NCBI RefSeq assembly: GCF_018446385.1 | Contig: NC_056001.1 | Coordinates: 109,594,436 to 109,658,435 of the forward strand | Length of the DNA: 64,000 bases | Direction: 5' to 3' | Source of the DNA: Zingiber officinale | Lineage: Eukaryota; Streptophyta; Magnoliopsida; Zingiberales; Zingiberaceae | Shown: piece by piece, positions 1 to 42,031 of the stretch | Layout of the letters: every line of letters begins with the position of its first letter | Position numbering within the stretch: the stretch's first letter is position 1 | Program-made: the position numbers and the translations under genes | The notes under the pieces: generated by a model | Databases searched by the model: none | Seen by the model: only the letters and a program-made list of their open reading frames with translations | What the model was told of the DNA's origin: nothing

Positions 1-434
1 AGCGCGTTCTGGGCGTCGAGGTAGAGAATGAAGGGGTGCCGCAAAACGGCATTGGCGATGTCGGACTCAGATAACCCCATGTCGCGCAAAATTTTAAACT
101 TTGGAGCGAGACTGTTCTCCACATCCCCGCAGAGAAATCCTGGCCTCCAAGATATTATCTTTCTGAGATTAGCACCATCAAGGCCATGAGATCTGAAGAA
201 TCCAAGAACAGCATCGGGCTTCTCGGTGGACTGAAAGCAGGGGAGCGACTTTGAGACCTTGGAAGCGTCGTCGGCGGAGAACCCCCATGTATTCACGAGG
301 TACTCGACCATGAAATGGGGATCGGGAGAAGCGGTAGTGCCTGAGGAGGAGACGTATGTGCCGGTGGAGAAGAAGACGCAACGGAGTTGCGTCGACGGAG
401 GGAGCGCATGGCGGCGGACCAGGGAGTGAAGCAT
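1..434 (-). CDS. mTERF family protein, N-terminal part (runs off window)
   Basis: I translated this by hand from the ATG at 434-432 down to base 1. The frame stays open for 144 codons and continues beyond the window, so only the N-terminal part is present. The protein starts MLHSLVRRHALPPSTQL, then a Ser/Thr-rich stretch, which looks like an organelle transit peptide. It continues into mTERF helical repeats (FSADDASKVSKSL, KPDAVLGFFRSHGLDGAN, LAPKFKILRDMGLSESD). It aligns without gaps to the three complete mTERF genes in the window, which supports the start. mTERF proteins bind organelle DNA or RNA and affect transcription or RNA processing; the target cannot be read here. A Mutator-type element lies 153 bp upstream of the ATG and may have altered its promoter. 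Confidence 0.9.
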   Translation of the reverse strand, partial: MLHSLVRRHALPPSTQLRCVFFSTGTYVSSSGTTASPDPHFMVEYLVNTWGFSADDASKVSKSLPCFQSTEKPDAVLGFFRSHGLDGANLRKIISWRPGFLCGDVENSLAPKFKILRDMGLSESDIANAVLRHPFILYLDAQNA

Positions 435-587: not shown

Positions 588-596
588 ATCAAAAGG
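588..596. repeat. 9-bp target site duplication, left copy (ATCAAAAGG)
   Basis: ATCAAAAGG at 588-596 is repeated exactly at 3827-3835, directly outside the inverted ends of the element between. Nine-base duplications are characteristic of Mutator-like elements. Confidence 0.9.
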
Positions 597-1044
597 GGGG
601 GGCGGATCTTCTGGACCCATTTTTCCTGATCCGCCCCTGGACCACACAACTTGTATAAAAGCTCCCTCACGTGATAAACACGTGCACGCGCCAACGCCAA
701 AAGCCCCAAAACCTCTCTGCCCTATCCTTTCTTGACGCCGCGAAAAAGCCCTACCTCCCTTCAGCTACCTCCAGCACCTCCGGAATCGCATCCCTCCTCC
801 CTCTCGCTGCCTCCCTCCCGTGGCCTCCAGCCGCCTCCTCCCTCCGACGTTGTGTCTCTCCAGCGACGCCAACCTTTCGCGGCCTCCCTCCAACATTGTC
901 GACCTCCAGCGCCCACGGCGACATCCCTCCCGCGGCCTCCCTCCAGAAGCTCCCCTCCAGCGGCCTCCAACATCGCGGCGACCTCCCTCCCGTGCCCTTC
1001 AGCTCCCTCACCTCCAGCCGCCTCCCTCCAGCAGCTCCCCTCCC
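597..1044 (+). repeat. Left long terminal inverted repeat of the Pack-MULE
   Basis: Inverse of 3378-3826, very similar throughout; small indels occur in the GC-rich inner part. The outer ~190 bp is unique-looking and includes CACGTG-type motifs. The inner part is a degenerate GC-rich minisatellite built on CCTCCCTCCCGYGGCCTCCAG-like units, which creates Pro/Ser-rich reading frames that I do not consider genes. Confidence 0.88.
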
Positions 1045-1411
1045 ACGACGACCTCCAGCGGCCTCCAGCTACCTCTCGACGTGAAAAAGTCCTAACTGAG
1101 ACCTATGAAAAATCATTATGTGAGAGGTTTTGTTTCTTTTTTTTGTGAATAATCAAAGCTCTGGAGAGGAGCACGGAAGCCTGAATAGTTTTTCCGATGA
1201 GTACGAACAGAATATTCAAAATGAACCTGTTCATTGTATTATTAGCTTTTTGACACTGTTTTCTTCCACTGATCACATGCTGTAACACCAGCAAACGTCT
1301 ATTTTCCAGCCATGCTTGATTCTCGTCTATCCATTTGACCTTTTTTTACATGATGCAGGACGAGTTTGCTCCACAAATGGAGGATTCAATGGATTACGAT
1401 AAGAAACAAGC

Positions 1412-1455
1412 AGTTGAAAGTTGAAAGTTGAAAGTTGAAAGCTGAAAGCTGAAAG
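1412..1455 (+). repeat. Short heptamer tandem repeat (TTGAAAG/CTGAAAG)
   Basis: About six head-to-tail copies of TTGAAAG, the last ones drifting to CTGAAAG, inside the Pack-MULE. Simple repeat with no evident function. Confidence 0.8.
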
Positions 1456-2192
1456 CATTGAATGTGAATACTCTCCAGTTACTACAACAGACGACTAATT
1501 TTCTCGATATATTTGTCACTGATGTAAAGTTTGCCCTGTGTAAGATAAGTTATATTAACCTCACTAAAATGTATTTGAAACATATTTGCAGTCAAAATTT
1601 TACAATATAGACAAACTTTATTTTTTAATTGTTGATAGAAAGTGTTGAAATGAGCTAAAACGCTTTGTTGCGGGAAAATGTAAAGTTTCTGGCGCAAGAG
1701 TTTCTGTTTAAGATGAAATATTAAAAGAGAGAGTTAGCATATACAGTTTGTTCTAAGTGTTACTTTAGAATAATTAAAATATTTAAAAAAATTATACTCA
1801 ATTTGAATAACTATTTTATAAAAATAGGACAAATTGTAAAAATATCAGAGAGTCTTGTAATACAAAACATTCTAGGGATGTTCAAGTGATTGAGAAAAAA
1901 AATAAAGAAATATTTTCACTCCGGTCGTTTTTCTTCTTTTCTTGCAAATCCTCTCACAGATCCCATGCAAAATCCTTGACAAAAGGAAAGAGGATACAGT
2001 GCAATAAGCAAATAACATTCTCTGCAAGCTTACTTGAGAAACTACTGACAAAATGCTCATTCAAAACGATTCTTAAAGTCTGATAAACTCATTAGAGAAA
2101 AGATAAATTCTTTCTCAGTCTCTAAACCTTCTATAACGACATCACCTCATATACAATTTTAAAATAAACTGTCAATCACACTTATGATTTTC

Positions 2193-2983
2193 TTAAGTAG
2201 TTTTGAAGGCATCACCCAGATTAAAATTTATGCTGTTTCTCATGGTCCTCCTTCCAAGACCTCCATTTCCAACTCCATTGCCTTTTCTCATCATTGCTGA
2301 GAATTCATTGTAATCTATTTGGTCATCCTACAAAGCAACATGTGTAAATTTTAATGACGTTCTACTGATACTATATGACAGATCAACCACAATTTAAGAA
2401 GCCAAATTTTAGCGAACTGAATTACTATAAAGAATATTTGCATCCAAGGGCAAAACGAAACAAAGATTGTAAAAGACTCACATTATCTTGATCAACTTCT
2501 TTGATCATCTCATCAAGGTGAACATCATCAAGACCAAATTCTTAGCATGCTTGTGAAAGTTCATCGAGAGTTATGTAACCACTTCCATCTTTGTCAAAAT
2601 ATGAGAATGCTGCCATTAGATTCTCGTCTCTCTCCAGCTTATTCATGTGAACTGTTGCTGCAAAAAATTCACCGTAGTCTATTGTGCCATTTTTATCAGT
2701 ATCAGCCTACAATTTCCAGATGATCAAGCAAATTAAAATTAGATTTTTTTTTTTCAAAAATTGATGCAGTGTTCCTTGGAGAAATAGAACGGTACAACAG
2801 CATTGACCAATCTTACCGCATCCATAAGTGCCTGTATCTCCGATTCCATAAGTTCCGATCCCACTCTTCTTAAGCCTTCTTTCAGTTCATCAAAGATTAT
2901 GGTTCCACTGTTATCTGTATCAATCATTTTGAACAACTCTTTAAGACCAACAATCTCTTCTTCGGGGAGGCTTTCTGCAATAA
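2193..2983 (-). pseudogene. Captured C-terminal fragment of a calcium-dependent protein kinase (EF-hands)
   Basis: Three exons are readable on the minus strand with consensus splice sites: 2983-2817 ([20 protein letters not shown], first EF-hand with DTDNSGTI), 2706-2482 ([14 protein letters not shown], then [13 protein letters not shown], then EFGLDDVHLDEMIKEVDQDN) and 2327-2193 (DQIDYNEFSAMMRKG and the CDPK tail GRRTMRNSINFNLGDAF, then a stop). Together they cover four EF-hand loops, the calcium-sensing half of a CDPK. The kinase domain and the autoinhibitory junction are absent. A stop codon stands in exon 2 where the family has Glu (SQAC-stop-EFG), so no full EF-hand domain can be made. 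It sits wholly inside the Pack-MULE, which explains why it is a fragment. The introns show the capture came from genomic DNA rather than mRNA. Confidence 0.88.
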
Positions 2984-3377
2984 CTTGAAAAATGAAGAAA
3001 TGCATAGTTGAGGAAACATACAATTTTTAGAAACACAGATTTGTAGACATTCTCAACCATGGTTGCATGTTCTCGCCCTAAAACATTCAATCTTAATTAT
3101 CTAGACTAGGTACTTCCTTGGCACATTGGATGCACTTACACGTACACCCATCTGGCAAGGTATGAGACACTAAGACAATTCAACTTCCACCATAAGAGGT
3201 TGTGTACAAAATTGAGTTTTAAACAGGTAGTGTGACGATAAAAATGAAAATGAAGTGACACTGCAGTTGCACAGTTCAGGCTTAATGCAAATCACCACAA
3301 TCTTCCACGACAATTACTGTTATAACACGTGCCTGCAGATCACAATTGGTGGAACCCAACTGAGCAATGCATTTCGC

Positions 3378-3826
3378 GGGAGGGGAGCTGCTGGAGGGAG
3401 GCAGCTGGAGGTGAGGGAAGTCGCTGGAGGCCACGGGAGGGAGGTCGCCGCGATGTTGGAGGCCGCTGGAGGGGAGCTTCTGGAGGGAGGCCGAGGGAGG
3501 GATGTCACCGTGGGCGCTGGAGGTCGGCAATGTTGGAGGGAGGCCGCGGAAGGTTGGCGTTGCTGGAGAGACACAACGTCGGAGGGAGGAGGCGGCTGGA
3601 GGCCACGGGAGGGAGGAGGGATGCGACGCCGGAGGTGCCGCAGGCGACGATGGAGGTAGCTGAAGGGAGGTAGGACTTTTTCGCGGCGTCAAGAGAGGAT
3701 AGGGCAGAGAGGTTTTGGGGCTTTTGGCGTTGGCACGTGCACGTGTTTACCACATGAGGGAGCTTTTATACAAGTTGTGTGGTCCAGGGGTGGACCAGGA
3801 AAAATGGGTCCAGAAGATCCGCCCCC
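3378..3826 (-). repeat. Right long terminal inverted repeat of the Pack-MULE
   Basis: Inverted copy of 597-1044; it ends GATCCGCCCCC at the right target duplication. The same GC-rich minisatellite appears on the opposite strand. Confidence 0.88.
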
Positions 3827-3835
3827 ATCAAAAGG
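3827..3835. repeat. 9-bp target site duplication, right copy (ATCAAAAGG)
   Basis: Exact match to 588-596. Confidence 0.9.
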
Positions 3836-4380
3836 TGCATTAAAAAATTATAATTTCTCTGTTAACTCTTCCGCCATCCACTGTTTCTAATTCATCATTT
3901 TTAAGTATCCAAATCACCTTTTTTAATTATAAATCAAATTTGTAATTTGGATGCACATGTTCTTACCTTTTCTCTTTCTCCATTTCTCTTCCTGATCTTA
4001 TATACACGAAATGATTATAAACTCCACTTATCATACATCCTCGTGATGATCGACGGGATTGCACGAGACGAGTTCAAAAGACAACAACGATTAACATCCT
4101 CGGCGTTGAATGACAAACTTCTAACAAAAGTGAAATTAGTAGAAAAAGACAGATAAAGATTTACCAATATATGTATAAATTTATTACTATAAAATATGTT
4201 AGTATTGTTTAAAAAAAAATTCACTTTTGTAGCAAAGGGTAATGAAAAAATTGTGTTTATGATGTTATTGGATGTGTAGAGAATAAATATTGAACAACAC
4301 CTGTAATATGATGTACTTCATCACTTAATTGGTTTGCAAGGTGCTCCAATGTGATGCTAGATTTCAACTAGACGTTGTTC
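3836..4380. other. AT-rich intergenic stretch, nothing recognised
   Basis: This resumes the DNA interrupted by the Pack-MULE. Short unrelated reading frames only. Confidence 0.6.
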
Positions 4381-4960
4381 ATACAAGTTAGGTTGATATG
4401 GTATGTATCAGTACATTGGGCCTGATATGCGATTATATTAGGTCCACTTCCTTCGTTGATAAAAATTTTAGTTTGATACCATATCTATCTTCTCATCGCT
4501 CAACCCGTCGTAGTTATCTGGATTTTGCATAAATCCAATTAACCTAAGTCCATCAGTAGGTTTTGACCAAAATCCACTAATCAACCTAAACATGTTTGAT
4601 TACACTCATTTAACATGTTGTGAGTTTTTGGTGTTACAAGGAGTTAAATTGTGTTATCCATTGCTTATTTAGGGCTCTCAGTCGTTGTCCAATGTTACGA
4701 GAAGTTTATGCTTTAATGCGGGTCTGATATCATCCTATATCAGGCCTAAGTTGGGCCTAATATCATCCCATATCAGGCCCAACATGGGCATGATATGGAA
4801 TGTTATTAGGCCCAACGTGATCTTTAGTTAAAACTTAGATTTTATAGCATATATACCTTTTCCTTGCTCAAACCTTCTTAGTGGTTGAAAATATGTAAAA
4901 TTACAAAACCCTAGGTCTATCAGTCGGATTCTGTCACCACCACTGATAAATTATGAAAAA
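4380..4960 (+). repeat. Left repeat block with GGCCCAACGTGGGCC-type palindromes
   Basis: About one and a half units of the same repeat that is tandem at 7631-10100: an ACCATAT..TCTCATCGCTCAACC-like lead, a hairpin around a CCATCAGTAGG core, and a run of alternating ATATCAGGCC and GGGCCTAATAT motifs at 4725-4825. Confidence 0.6.
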
Positions 4961-32235: not shown

Positions 32236-33348
32236 TCACAAGACTTCAAGCAGTTTGGGTAATTTATCTTTGTAAGGGAGCACATACTTCTGCAAAAATT
32301 TTGGTCCTGGCAATGAGAAAAGCGTAGATAACTTCATCTGTGATGTCCATAACCCTTCAGATTTTAAAATCTCCATCACATGAAATCGAGGAATTAACCT
32401 CTTTTCCAAACTTAAATCTAAAAACGTCGAATGCTTAGCAATGTCTAAAGGTGCCATTCCAACATCCTTGATTAAAAACTCCATCTTTCTCTGCAATGCC
32501 TCTGTGGAAACCCATATCAAAGTTGGATGTTTCTTCACTACAGCAACGTAATCCGAGTTTGACCAACCAAAGCTGTTCATGATCTTGACTCGGGCCTCAA
32601 ATTTTTCCCTGCTGACCCTGCGCAGCGCAAAAACGATCCAGAGGAACATCCTAGATTCTCGGGGAATTCCAATCTCGTCAGCTCTATTTACTAGAGCCCG
32701 GATGGCATCTAGGTTCTGCACCATGAAGCTCGGGTCCCTTTTAATGACAAGAAAAACCTGCTCTTCAGGAATGCCACATTCATCCCGTAAGAAGTTCAAG
32801 TTAGGGCGCACCAGATTATCGTTGTTGCAGATAAACCTGCTACGCCTCCGGAGATTCTTGAGAAGGATCTCCCTGGATCCAAAAAGGCTTTCCCAAACCT
32901 TCAATCTGGGGAGAAGCGTGTTCTGGACGTTGAGGGAAAGAATGCCGGGGTGCCGCATAACGACCTTGATTGCGTCGGACATCGAAAACCCCATGTCGCG
33001 CAAAAAATTGAACTTCGGAGCGAGGTTCGTCTCCACATCCCAGCCGAGCAATCTTGGCTTCCAAGATATTATCTTTCTGAGATTAGCGCCATCAAGGCCC
33101 TGAGATCTGAAGAATCCAAGAACAGCGTCGGGCTTCTCGGTGGACCGAAAACGGCGGAACGACTTTGAGACCTTGGAAGCATCGTCGGCGGAGAACCCGC
33201 ATGTATCCACGAGGTACTCGGCCAGGAAGTGCGGATCGGGAGAAGCGGTGGCGCCTGAGGAGGAGGCTGAAGCGCCGGTGGAGAAGAAGACCAGACGGAG
33301 TTGGGTCGGAGGAGGGAAGGCACGGCGGCGGACCAGGGAGTGAAACAT
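32236..33348 (-). CDS. mTERF family protein (complete, single exon)
   Basis: A 370-residue open frame without introns. Residues 1-35 (MFHSLVRRRAFPPPTQL.. FFSTGASASSSGATAS) are basic and Ser-rich with no acidic residue, like a mitochondrial or plastid transit peptide. From about residue 38 onward mTERF helix-turn-helix repeats follow one another: FSADDASKVSKSF, KPDAVLGFFRSQGLDGANLR, LAPKFNFLRDMGFSMSDAIK, LNFLRDECGIPEEQVFLVIK, FGWSNSDYVAVVKKHPTL, and a C-terminal KYVLPYKDKLPKLLEVL. Length fits the short single-exon plant mTERF class. The start is fixed by alignment to three paralogs here. Family members act in organelle transcription or RNA maturation; the target is unknown. It is diverged from the tandem pair at 38-45 kb and lies in the same orientation. 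Confidence 0.93.
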   Translation of the reverse strand: MFHSLVRRRAFPPPTQLRLVFFSTGASASSSGATASPDPHFLAEYLVDTCGFSADDASKVSKSFRRFRSTEKPDAVLGFFRSQGLDGANLRKIISWKPRLLGWDVETNLAPKFNFLRDMGFSMSDAIKVVMRHPGILSLNVQNTLLPRLKVWESLFGSREILLKNLRRRSRFICNNDNLVRPNLNFLRDECGIPEEQVFLVIKRDPSFMVQNLDAIRALVNRADEIGIPRESRMFLWIVFALRRVSREKFEARVKIMNSFGWSNSDYVAVVKKHPTLIWVSTEALQRKMEFLIKDVGMAPLDIAKHSTFLDLSLEKRLIPRFHVMEILKSEGLWTSQMKLSTLFSLPGPKFLQKYVLPYKDKLPKLLEVL

Positions 33349-33374
33349 CGGGTCGCGTCAAACGATCACGCGAG

Positions 33375-33410
33375 GTCGACTCAAATAGATTCCCATAAAA
33401 AACCCTACTT
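33375..33410 (-). promoter_or_regulatory. Conserved upstream block with telo-box-like motif
   Basis: GTCGACTCAAATAGATTCCC followed by AAACCCTA (33400-33407), the same block as upstream of the other mTERF genes. Confidence 0.45.
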
Positions 33411-33789
33411 CACTCACCTCTACCGGACTCAATCTAACACGTTTTGGTTCGATCTATTTAACCCGTTAATAAATAAATATTTTCAATTTATTTGACAAAA
33501 AAAGGTCGTACGTTATCCCGAACACTCCACACAATTAATCTCACTCCAACCTTGTGGTTAATAGTTTCAATTTTTATATATATAACCCTATTATACCGGA
33601 ATACTTTTTATAAAAAAAACTACTTAAACTTTATCCAAATTATTTTAAAACATTAGTAAAACTTATGAAGTAGTTATAATGATCTTAAATATTATATTAA
33701 AATATTCTTTATCAAATTAATTAAAATTATTTAAACTTTATCAAAATTATTTTAAATTACAACTAAACTTTATTCCATTAGGTGGAACT
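33411..33789. other. AT-rich spacer, nothing recognised
   Basis: Upstream of the mTERF gene; no ORF or repeat family recognised. Confidence 0.5.
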
Positions 33790-38355: not shown

Positions 38356-39471
38356 TCACAAGACTTCATGCAGTTTGGGTAATTTATCTTGGTAAGGGAG
38401 CACATACTTCTGCAAAAAATATGGACCAGATGATGAGAAAAATCCATGTAGCTTGTCTGTTGTATTCCATAACCCTTCAGATTTCAATATCTCCATCACA
38501 CGAAATCGAGGAATCAACCTCTTTTCCAAACTTAATCCTAAAGGCTTCGGGTGGTAAGCAATGTCTAAAGGTGCAATCCCAACATCCTTGACCAAAAATT
38601 CCATCTTTCCCAGCAATGACTCTGTGGAAAGCTTTAGAAAACTTGGTTGTTTCTTGACTGCAGTATTGAAATCCGAATTTGACCAGCCAAAATTGTTCAT
38701 GAGCTTGACATGGGCCTCAAATTTTTCCCTGCTGACCCCGTGCAGCACATCAAGGATCCAGAGGAACATTCTAGATTCCCGGGTAATTCCAATCCCCTCA
38801 ACTCTATCTACCAGAGCCCGGAGGGTGTCTGGGTTCAGCATGATGAAGCTCGGGTGAAATTTAATGACAAGAGAAACCCGCTTTTCAGAAATACCACATT
38901 CATCCCGTAAGAATTTCATGTTGGGGTGTAGTACATTCTCAATGTTGCTGCTAAAAAACCATCCGGAATTCCGGAGATTCTTGAGGAGGATCTCCTTCGA
39001 TCCAAATAAACTTTCCCAAACCTTCAATCTGGGAAGAAGCGTGTTCTGGACGTTGAGCCAAATGATGAAGGGTTGCCGCATAACGACATTGACGACGTCG
39101 GACTCAGACAACCCCATGTCGCGCAAAAAATTGAACTTCGGAGCGAGGTTCGTCTCCACATCACAGCCGAGCAATACTGGCCTCCAAGATATTAGCTTTC
39201 TGATATTAGCGCCATCTAGGCCCCGAGATCTGAGGAATCCAAGAACGGCGTCGGCTCTCTCGGTGGACTGACAGCGGGAGAGCTTCTTTGAGACCTTGGA
39301 AGCATCCTTGGCGGAGAACCCGCATGTATCCACGAGGTAATCGACCGGGAAGTGCGTATCGGTAGAAGCGGTGGCGCCTGAAGAGGAGACAGAAGTGACG
39401 GTGGAGAAGAAGACGCGGAGGAGTTGGGTCGGAGGAGGGAGGGCATAGCGGCGGACCAAGGAGTGAAACAT
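38356..39471 (-). CDS. mTERF family protein, tandem copy A (complete)
   Basis: 371 residues in one exon, starting MFHSLVRRYALPPPTQLLRV with a Ser/Thr-rich presequence (FFSTVTSVSSSGATAST), so organelle targeting is likely. mTERF repeats follow: FSAKDASKVSKKLSR, ADAVLGFLRSRGLDGANIRK, LAPKFNFLRDMGLSESDVVN, MKFLRDECGISEKRVSLVIK, FGWSNSDFNTAVKKQPSFL, ending KYVLPYQDKLPKLHEVL. It differs from the second tandem copy at eight residues and is more distant from the copy at 32-33 kb. Both tandem copies keep an open frame, so both may be functional. The conserved AAGCCCTAA block lies about 65 bp upstream. Confidence 0.94.
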   Translation of the reverse strand: MFHSLVRRYALPPPTQLLRVFFSTVTSVSSSGATASTDTHFPVDYLVDTCGFSAKDASKVSKKLSRCQSTERADAVLGFLRSRGLDGANIRKLISWRPVLLGCDVETNLAPKFNFLRDMGLSESDVVNVVMRQPFIIWLNVQNTLLPRLKVWESLFGSKEILLKNLRNSGWFFSSNIENVLHPNMKFLRDECGISEKRVSLVIKFHPSFIMLNPDTLRALVDRVEGIGITRESRMFLWILDVLHGVSREKFEAHVKLMNNFGWSNSDFNTAVKKQPSFLKLSTESLLGKMEFLVKDVGIAPLDIAYHPKPLGLSLEKRLIPRFRVMEILKSEGLWNTTDKLHGFFSSSGPYFLQKYVLPYQDKLPKLHEVL

Positions 39472-42031
39472 ATCGTGGATTCGTGGGCGCGTGTCAAGCG
39501 TCCTCGTGAAGTCGACCTAAATTGATCCCGTAAAGCCCTAATTCAATCGCATCTTCCGGGCTACCTTCACTATTCGTTGTTTAAAATTTAAAATTATAAA
39601 ATTCTATGTGTTGATCGGATATAATATATATATATTTAGAATTTAAAATAAAAAAATATTATTCTTTAAAAAATTTAAAAAAAAAAAAATTGGGTGGAGA
39701 TGTCTAGGCCAAATCCAGACCCTCAATCACTATGATGCGAATGGTTACGCTTATAGTTTTAATTTTTTTTACCTTAAATACTATAAATTTATTCTTAAAC
39801 ACTCTCAAGATAAAATTTAATTGTCTTAACTCCATAATTAAAAAAAATAAATAAAAAAAGTGCTATTAGGCATTCTAAATATATACCCTGTAGTATTTAT
39901 TTTTTAAAATTTTAATTTTTTTTAGTTTGAACATGACAATCAAAACACTAAATCCTAGAAGTAAAATCTAATTAGCTTAATCCGAGAGTCAACCAAATAA
40001 TAAATGAATCGAGACTCTTGAATTCAATCCAGGTGACTAGATTGTTATCGCAGACAAAGTTCGCAGCATTTCATCCACGACATATCAAATTTATATATAT
40101 AATTTTGATATGTTGTCGATCTTATGTCGTACACTCCATGAGCACTAATTGTTTTTTATTTTTTTAAACTCTTGGTTATCCCAATCATATTTTACCTTTT
40201 AGATTTACGGGGGTTGTGTCATAGTATTAAGTATTAAAAAATTTTAAATTGAAAAAAAATTTAGGTGCATAATGTGGGGCTTAAGATGAACAATATATAA
40301 AATATATATATAATTCAAGAATGTTAGTAAGTAAAAAAAGAAAAATCAAAATCTCAAGTAAATAAGTGAAATTCAACACACAATTTATTATTTCATATTG
40401 CAAGAAAACAGATAACACAATAACATCCAGATTATCGAGCAATATAAATCCAATCAAAACAACTTATAAATAACAAGTATTCCTACCAAGTTGTATAAGA
40501 TCTAAATCTTATATAGTAGTATAAGATCTTCAGACAATTTTGAATAATAATAAATAAGCTTTTTTTGGTCTGTATACTTCTCACACTTTCAGTCTCATCT
40601 CAGTTCTCATCGATCAACTAGTCTACATTTATCATACTTTACAATTCAAATTACAAGAATCTGAGATTAACAGTATGTATATGTAAGAATTTGCAATTGA
40701 TAGCATTTAGAAATGAAATGTACTGTGATTTTTCTGTAAAAAAAAAAGGCAATTTAAGTATGTGACAGACTTTATCCACATAATAAGAGTGATACTTTCG
40801 ATGAAGCTCAACAAAGAGGCTTCTAACTATAATTCTATTCTCCTTTAGCTTTCAACAATATTAAGAGATGAGATAGATTAAATAGAAGTGATATAGTCTG
40901 AATCTCCTCCTTGGAGCCTTTTTCCACTGTAGCACTTCACTAAGGGTTTGTACTGGTAGAGTCCCAGTTGACTCCTCATCCATGGCTGAGGTCCTCCTCC
41001 GGTCTTTATCGCTCCACTACCTCCGCCTATGAGTAGAAGTGCTTACAATGAGTGGGGGCTAGCACTGTCGGCTTTACCCCTCCGATGCTTAAGTCAACGA
41101 CGAGTTAAACAAAAAAAGTATTTCCCTCAAGGAAGGGCTCGATTGTTTGTTGGAATTCAATAAAAGTCCTACATTAGAAAAATTTAATAAAGATCATGGA
41201 TTTAAAATAATATAAGATATTTCCATTAGCATGAAGTTTTTTGGATATAGTCTAAGAGCAAAGTCACGAGGACTTATGTCTAAAGTGGACAATATTATGT
41301 TATTATGGAGATATGTAAACAAACTTTAGACATAACATTGTTATTTTCTTGTTATTAAAATAGAAAGGAAGAAAAAGAAGAAAAATACAGTCAGGGATCA
41401 TGAGAATATTATCTTTTTTATTCGAACTTAAGTTTCTTTTTATATAAATGAAACCTCGCTTCCCATGCCCCCTCACTCCTATTGTTTCATCTTTATGTGC
41501 TATGGGTGAGAGACAATTCCGACGTCAGGCGATGACTGTGCTTGGGTGTTAGAGATATGCCCTAACATGCACGGTTTTCTTCCTACCGCAAATAGCCAGG
41601 GACCAATCCCTAGGTGACAATGATGATCTGTCTTTTTGGGTGTGGGACATCTTTTAGTTTGGGGAAACACCTTTCCAAATTCGTTCTTCGATTCAGTTAA
41701 TCATTGTCATTTCCGTGGGAGTCAAAGGAGACAACACCACAGAATGAATTGAATTGCATGGGAGGGAATGCCCCCCCTAACAATCTTGTTATCAGCTTGA
41801 TAGAGTCCCCTGATGGATTGTTTGCGAGCATGATACTATTAGAGATAGTAAAAGAGGTTAGTCGGAGGGGTGGAGCCCAGAGGAGATATTCCCATGAGGG
41901 GTGTTCTTATTGGCTTGGATAATGGGTTGTAGACATTCCTTAGCGAGAATGCTGCTACACCGCTCATGAACTGTAGAGTGTGAGGACTAGTAGGGATTTA
42001 CCGAAGAAGATATCCTTACCATCATATTATT
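39472..42031. other. Non-coding 5' flank of unit A
   Basis: Starts with the conserved upstream block (39510-39545), then AT-rich DNA. Two moderately GC-richer stretches at about 40890-41110 and 41540-42000 look like remnants of something transcribed (a small frame with GGNAPPNNLVISLIESPDG at 41704) but I do not recognise a family. GACTG at 41534-41538 is the empty site matching the LTR insertion in unit B. Confidence 0.55.

Follow-up and report, generated by a model that had tools for sequence, protein, structure and literature searches.

A fragment of a CDPK gene lies between long inverted repeats on chromosome C16 of ginger (Zingiber officinale), in a 64,000-nucleotide stretch of DNA hereafter called the window. 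Its position raises the questions of how it arrived there, where it came from, and whether it still encodes anything. It is almost certain that the fragment is the cargo of a multicopy Pack-MULE, which took up a single block comprising the 3′ part of a CDPK gene and the edge of a neighbouring gene, subsequently spread, and decayed. The genome searched comprised 3,090,333,446 bases in 211 contigs, in which chromosomes with neighbouring numbers (C15/C16, C13/C14, etc.) probably represent haplotype pairs. The features of the locus are listed in Table 1.

Table 1. Features of the element and its surroundings, in window coordinates.
Feature	Position	Strand	Remarks
mTERF gene, 5′ part (PF02536)	1–434	-	start codon at 434
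Left target-site duplication	588–596		ATCAAAAGG; single in the empty C15 site
Left terminal inverted repeat	597–1048	+	64% G+C; first letters GGGGGGCGGATCTTCTGGACCC
Inner extension of left arm	1049–1089	+	right arm has no equivalent at its inner end
Captured donor block	1090–3373	-	34% G+C; aligned to donor
Remnant of predicted last exon of the donor's convergent neighbour	1359–1498	+	by-eye model; interrupted by 7-bp repeat units
Deletion site of the window copy	1773–1774		about 256–263 bp missing; kept in both sister elements and both donor alleles
Last CDPK exon, EF-hand 4	2193–2327	-	loop Gly to Asp; native stop codon retained
CDPK exon, EF-hands 2 and 3	2482–2706	-	in-frame stop at 2542–2544, in all three elements
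CDPK exon, EF-hand 1	2817–2984	-	acceptor at 2985–2986, CAG to CAA
Right terminal inverted repeat	3374–3826	-	64% G+C
Right target-site duplication	3827–3835		ATCAAAAGG; perfect match to the left one

The mobile element spans 597–3826 and is 3230 bp long. Its arms (598–1048 versus 3374–3826) are 91.6% identical over 455 columns in BLAST; their 449 aligned sites contain 35 substitutions (7.8%), with eight gap columns in addition. They contain two gapless inverted pairs, 598–773 with 3651–3826 (176 nt, 96%) and 810–1029 with 3397–3616 (220 nt, 91%), while a piece at the left inner extension (1077–1097) pairs with 3668–3688 inside the right arm. Pack-MULEs produce target duplications of about 9 bp. 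The locus shows both long terminal inverted repeats (about 450 bp, 92% alike) and a duplication of this length, present twice here and once on C15; these results agree with an earlier note on this DNA, which had claimed a 3230 bp element with inverted ends of about 448 bp and a perfect 9-bp duplication. A transposase is absent from the element, as its interior (1090–3373) aligns throughout to donor DNA.

The left flank (1–596) matches C15:134676720–134677315 at 98% and the right flank (3827–4800) matches C15:134677307–134678280 at 96%, the two matches overlapping by nine bases. This C15 site reads CTTTGTATCAAAAGGTGCATA, with a single ATCAAAAGG and no insert. Two more C15 copies (L057 and L059) also carry one ATCAAAAGG each and lack the insert, so that three of the three C15 copies examined are empty at the element's position. 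Which of them is the exact allelic copy is uncertain because the C15 region is a tandem array; the best match of the left flank, at 99%, is L057 (C15:134643387), a different repeat from the one that matches both flanks. The right flank beyond the duplication (3836–4800) is itself a dispersed repeat, 75–96% alike besides the self match among the best 40 of 3723 candidates.

Two sister elements, on C17 and C4, were found in the genome search that the earlier note had proposed. Both carry the two arms and the same cargo as the C16 element, with the same breakpoints, and the corresponding partner-chromosome sites show no insert. The C4 element is flanked by the duplication TTCATATTC. Located by coordinates, one of its flank matches on C3 ends at C3:131747027 and the other starts at C3:131747020, an overlap of eight bases as observed and of nine by inference, since the query started one base into the duplication. 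The duplication of the C17 element seems to be GGCTGAGGG, the other copy being lost in a G run. Its flank matches, also located by coordinates, end at C18:14298743 and start at C18:14298766; they lie 22 bases apart and therefore leave no element-sized insert there, although gaps of some hundreds of bases interrupt them and similar sequence is repeated nearby.

The donor is a CDPK locus present on C13 and C14, without arms, which continues into kinase exons. BLAST matches between the window and these chromosomes are restricted to 1090–3375. Upstream of the captured part on C13, similarity to the C1/C2 paralogs extends for about 1.1 kb, and two peptides from this region match Pkinase in Pfam at 51.1 and 30.0 bits, the second falling below the cut-off of 31.7. 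The evidence for a donor gene thus consists of the EF-hand exons, the two Pkinase pieces and a junction peptide (HPWIVDD...KKMALR) found on C13; RDLKPEN, sought in the window and in loci L001–L071 as a sign of the donor's first kinase exon, gave no match. A host gene has been copied and yet kept elsewhere without arms, and the parental gene anticipated by the earlier note was recovered, with introns matching as well as exons. The C1/C2 gene was rejected as donor, being 72–83% alike over longer pieces despite 91–92% over 146 bases of the last exon. The reverse derivation, of the gene from the element, was rejected as well, as kinase pieces are present and arms absent at the C13/C14 locus. Near the C1 paralog, ORF translations of L053 (about 3400–4500) show a recurring peptide pattern suggestive of a minisatellite array.

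Capture took place at the DNA level, because the C13/C14 donor matches the introns of the cargo as well as its exons. A retrocopy was rejected: the introns are kept, and the coding exons differ from C14 at 14 of 528 sites (2.7%), compared with 4.2% for the whole cargo. In the window copy the captured block measures 2,284 bp; its counterpart in the C13 donor is about 2.55 kb long, the difference arising because the window copy lacks 256–263 bp. The cargo had previously been described as part of a CDPK gene; the CDPK exons stand, but the block also includes what is predicted to be the last exon of a neighbouring, convergent gene. In both donor alleles this exon has an open frame that ends at the same stop, and in all three elements it is interrupted. 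The neighbour gene model is weakened because the corresponding stretch of C1 has no single open frame, and a Pfam scan of the convergent neighbour gave no match. At the left junction, TCCTA, as judged by eye, is common to the arm, the element and the donor. Gap filling and template switching are named as capture models in passages of PMC8277862. The shared TCCTA, together with the arm piece that pairs elsewhere, would be compatible with either model, a fit and not a proof; the block may have entered an ancestral element in a single event of gap repair or template switching.

With regard to the cargo, the three exons and two introns of a CDPK C-terminus reported earlier were located on the minus strand, and the introns between the exons have GT and AG ends. 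The good splice sites noted at that time hold for these two introns but not for the acceptor of the first exon, which reads CAA in the window copy alone among the five aligned sequences. The kinase domain expected of a CDPK gene is missing, as previously claimed; kinase pieces lie outside the captured block, in the donor. The second exon does contain a stop (plus-strand TTA; K111*), which is present in all three copies and in neither donor allele. The residue it replaces is not the conserved Glu of the earlier note but Lys (AAA in both donor alleles): the donor alleles read ACKEFGL in an open frame and the elements AC*EFGL, while the C1 paralog also has Lys. EF-hand matches are present on either side of the stop, but the loop of EF-hand 4 has lost its Gly (G133D) in all three elements, so that four intact EF-hands in one open frame are not found. 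Further stops occur in the sister copies (Q51* in C17 and C4, G27* in C4). There is no native start in the cargo, because the block begins downstream of the kinase exons. The shared Lys-to-stop change, the Gly-to-Asp change in EF-hand 4 and the acceptor lost here make this a decaying Pack-MULE, from which a protein product is unlikely; this is the conclusion that the earlier note had drawn from the stop.

In a search with the interior (1100–3360), the best five places were C16, C4, C17, C14 and C13, among the best 40 of 104 candidates. At ungapped sites, the cargoes of the three elements differ from each other by 1.7–2.5% and, introns included, from the donor alleles by 4.2–5.4% (identity 94.6–95.8%), and the donor alleles on C13 and C14 differ by 2.4%. 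For the window copy, the divergence is 4.2% from C14 and 4.8% from C13. When gaps are counted, element and donor are 86–95% alike by BLAST pieces. At 55 sites the elements all depart from both donor alleles, and three derived sites are common to just two elements. A rate of 1.3e-8 per site per year is applied to LTR elements in a passage of PMC8342452; at this rate, Kimura distances correspond, as a rough guide, to about 1.7–2.2 million years between element and donor and about 0.7–1.0 million years between elements. The copies may have been decaying, with no protein made, since before their spread. The arms differ between elements by 3.7–6.9%, which exceeds the divergence of the cargo; a single common spread would not alone account for this. 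The C4 element (L050) also carries a nested insertion of about 113 bp between direct duplications of 17–18 bp, at the equivalent of window positions 1460–1477.

Two other explanations of the locus itself were weighed. An expressed element could yield a truncated EF-hand protein that acts as a calcium decoy of the CDPK. The three exons, the two intact introns and the EF-hand matches flanking the stop would suit such a protein, as would the 0.057 synonymous and 0.019 nonsynonymous changes per site between the C14 donor and the window copy, some of which may have arisen on the donor branch. Among the elements themselves, the ratio is mixed and based on very few changes (0.0095 synonymous and 0.0142 nonsynonymous for C16–C4, 0.0379 and 0.0071 for C16–C17, and 0.0286 and 0.0071 for C17–C4); columns gapped in the window copy were left out of these codon counts, including a 6-base insertion in the middle exon of the C4 copy. 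With the shared stop, the extra stops on C17 and C4, G133D and the acceptor lost here also against it, a decoy is very improbable. It could also be supposed that the arms are two unrelated repeats which by chance stand on either side of a segmental CDPK duplication, since similar arms occur elsewhere without CDPK cargo. However, the same arms and breakpoints recur at three sites, the C16 and C4 copies have their own duplications, and an empty site is read on C15. Chance repeats were rejected on these shared breakpoints, and their probability is close to nil. The earlier note had listed two findings that would tell against its reading, kinase exons contiguous in a sister haplotype without the arms, and arms belonging to separate repeats; neither was encountered, C15 carrying an empty site and arms and cargo forming one unit at three loci.

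A regulatory role, on the other hand, is compatible with the multicopy Pack-MULE explanation. The insertion may alter the adjacent mTERF gene or supply small RNAs that silence the donor CDPK, which appears unlikely. The insertion target sits 153 bp upstream of the mTERF start codon, with the CDPK exons running in the mTERF direction, and at ungapped sites the window cargo shares 95.2–95.8% identity with the donor alleles. In maize, Helitrons, Pack-MULEs and Sirevirus elements are presented as siRNA reservoirs for donor genes in part of a review (PMC13317346). Against this role, the mTERF copy beside the element carries one additional base within an A run, compared with three C15 copies, which breaks its frame unless it is an assembly error, and the C15 mTERF at the empty site itself has a shorter frame (325 versus 375 codons). 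It is less probable still, and at best speculative, that the three one-haplotype copies supply small RNAs from their scattered sites and thereby tune the donor CDPK, possibly together with the adjacent mTERF allele, in a haplotype-specific manner within a clonally grown crop. The mTERF part has many matches on C15 and C16 that resemble a tandem array (window 1–434, 32915–33422 and 39038–39543; C15:134.28–135.12 Mb).

The Pack-MULE of ginger is a well-supported, ordinary example of a kind of gene-capturing transposon already known from rice and maize. Pack-MULEs were reportedly described in rice by Jiang et al. in 2004 (cited in PMC13317346). Like those of rice, the ginger element has inverted-repeat ends, a target duplication, an intron-bearing fragment of a host gene whose donor lies elsewhere, several copies with distinct target duplications, and a position near a gene 5′ end, a kind of site that Pack-MULEs prefer. 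Unlike them, it has captured the A+T-rich 3′ half of a gene and may have been moved by a transposase of the FAR1 type. According to passages of PMC8277862, Pack-MULEs tend toward capture of G+C-rich regions, and 36% (481/1337) of those in rice are multicopy. The cargo comes from the calmodulin-like part of a plant CDPK gene but differs from such a gene in its absent kinase domain and interrupted frame. In an open-licence library of papers, no Pack-MULE with a CDPK was found, and the sole match for a Pack-MULE in Zingiber concerned Pooideae; the element may be described elsewhere. Outside the grasses, the locus is a compact case: a single phased genome holds, for comparison, the donor alleles, the breakpoints of capture, three insertions and the partner sites that lack the insert.

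Of the arm matches outside the three elements, 14 loci (L035–L048) were considered, and by-eye ORFs from eight of these were scanned with Pfam. The MULE domain (PF10551) was detected in L043, L045 and L046, and FAR1 (PF03101) in L045 and L046. FAR1/Jittery-type MULEs are a named kind of transposon, to which these ginger relatives with similar arms correspond in carrying both domains; the captured element differs from that kind in having no transposase and in having arms only 66–78% like theirs by piece. The FAR1/MULE transposases near related arms are candidate movers, by which the copies may have been moved in trans; they stay candidates because the arms of the transposase-bearing relatives are no closer than this. 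The L045 transposase has at least 39 other matches in the genome, at 92–96%, among the best 40 of 380 candidates, and five of the 40, on C12 (the query locus itself), C11, C10 (two) and C4, have a same-strand arm match 0.5–0.8 kb away.

In addition, SINA RING or zinc-finger pieces were found in L036 (C1:115.08 Mb), L039 (C21:94.75 Mb) and L047 (C21:94.67 Mb), and on C1 the SINA piece lies between plus- and minus-strand arm matches about 5 kb apart. These SINA E3 ligase fragments near related arms apparently represent a second captured gene. Pfam scans of L040:580–933 and L048:279–527 gave no match. Among the best 40 of 2012 candidates, the stretch 960–1481 of the SINA piece recurs in at least seven other places at 97–99%, and the piece has at least four places on C9/C10 at 87–88%. 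Arm ends of about 89% identity also occur on C13, C9, C3, C16 and C1.
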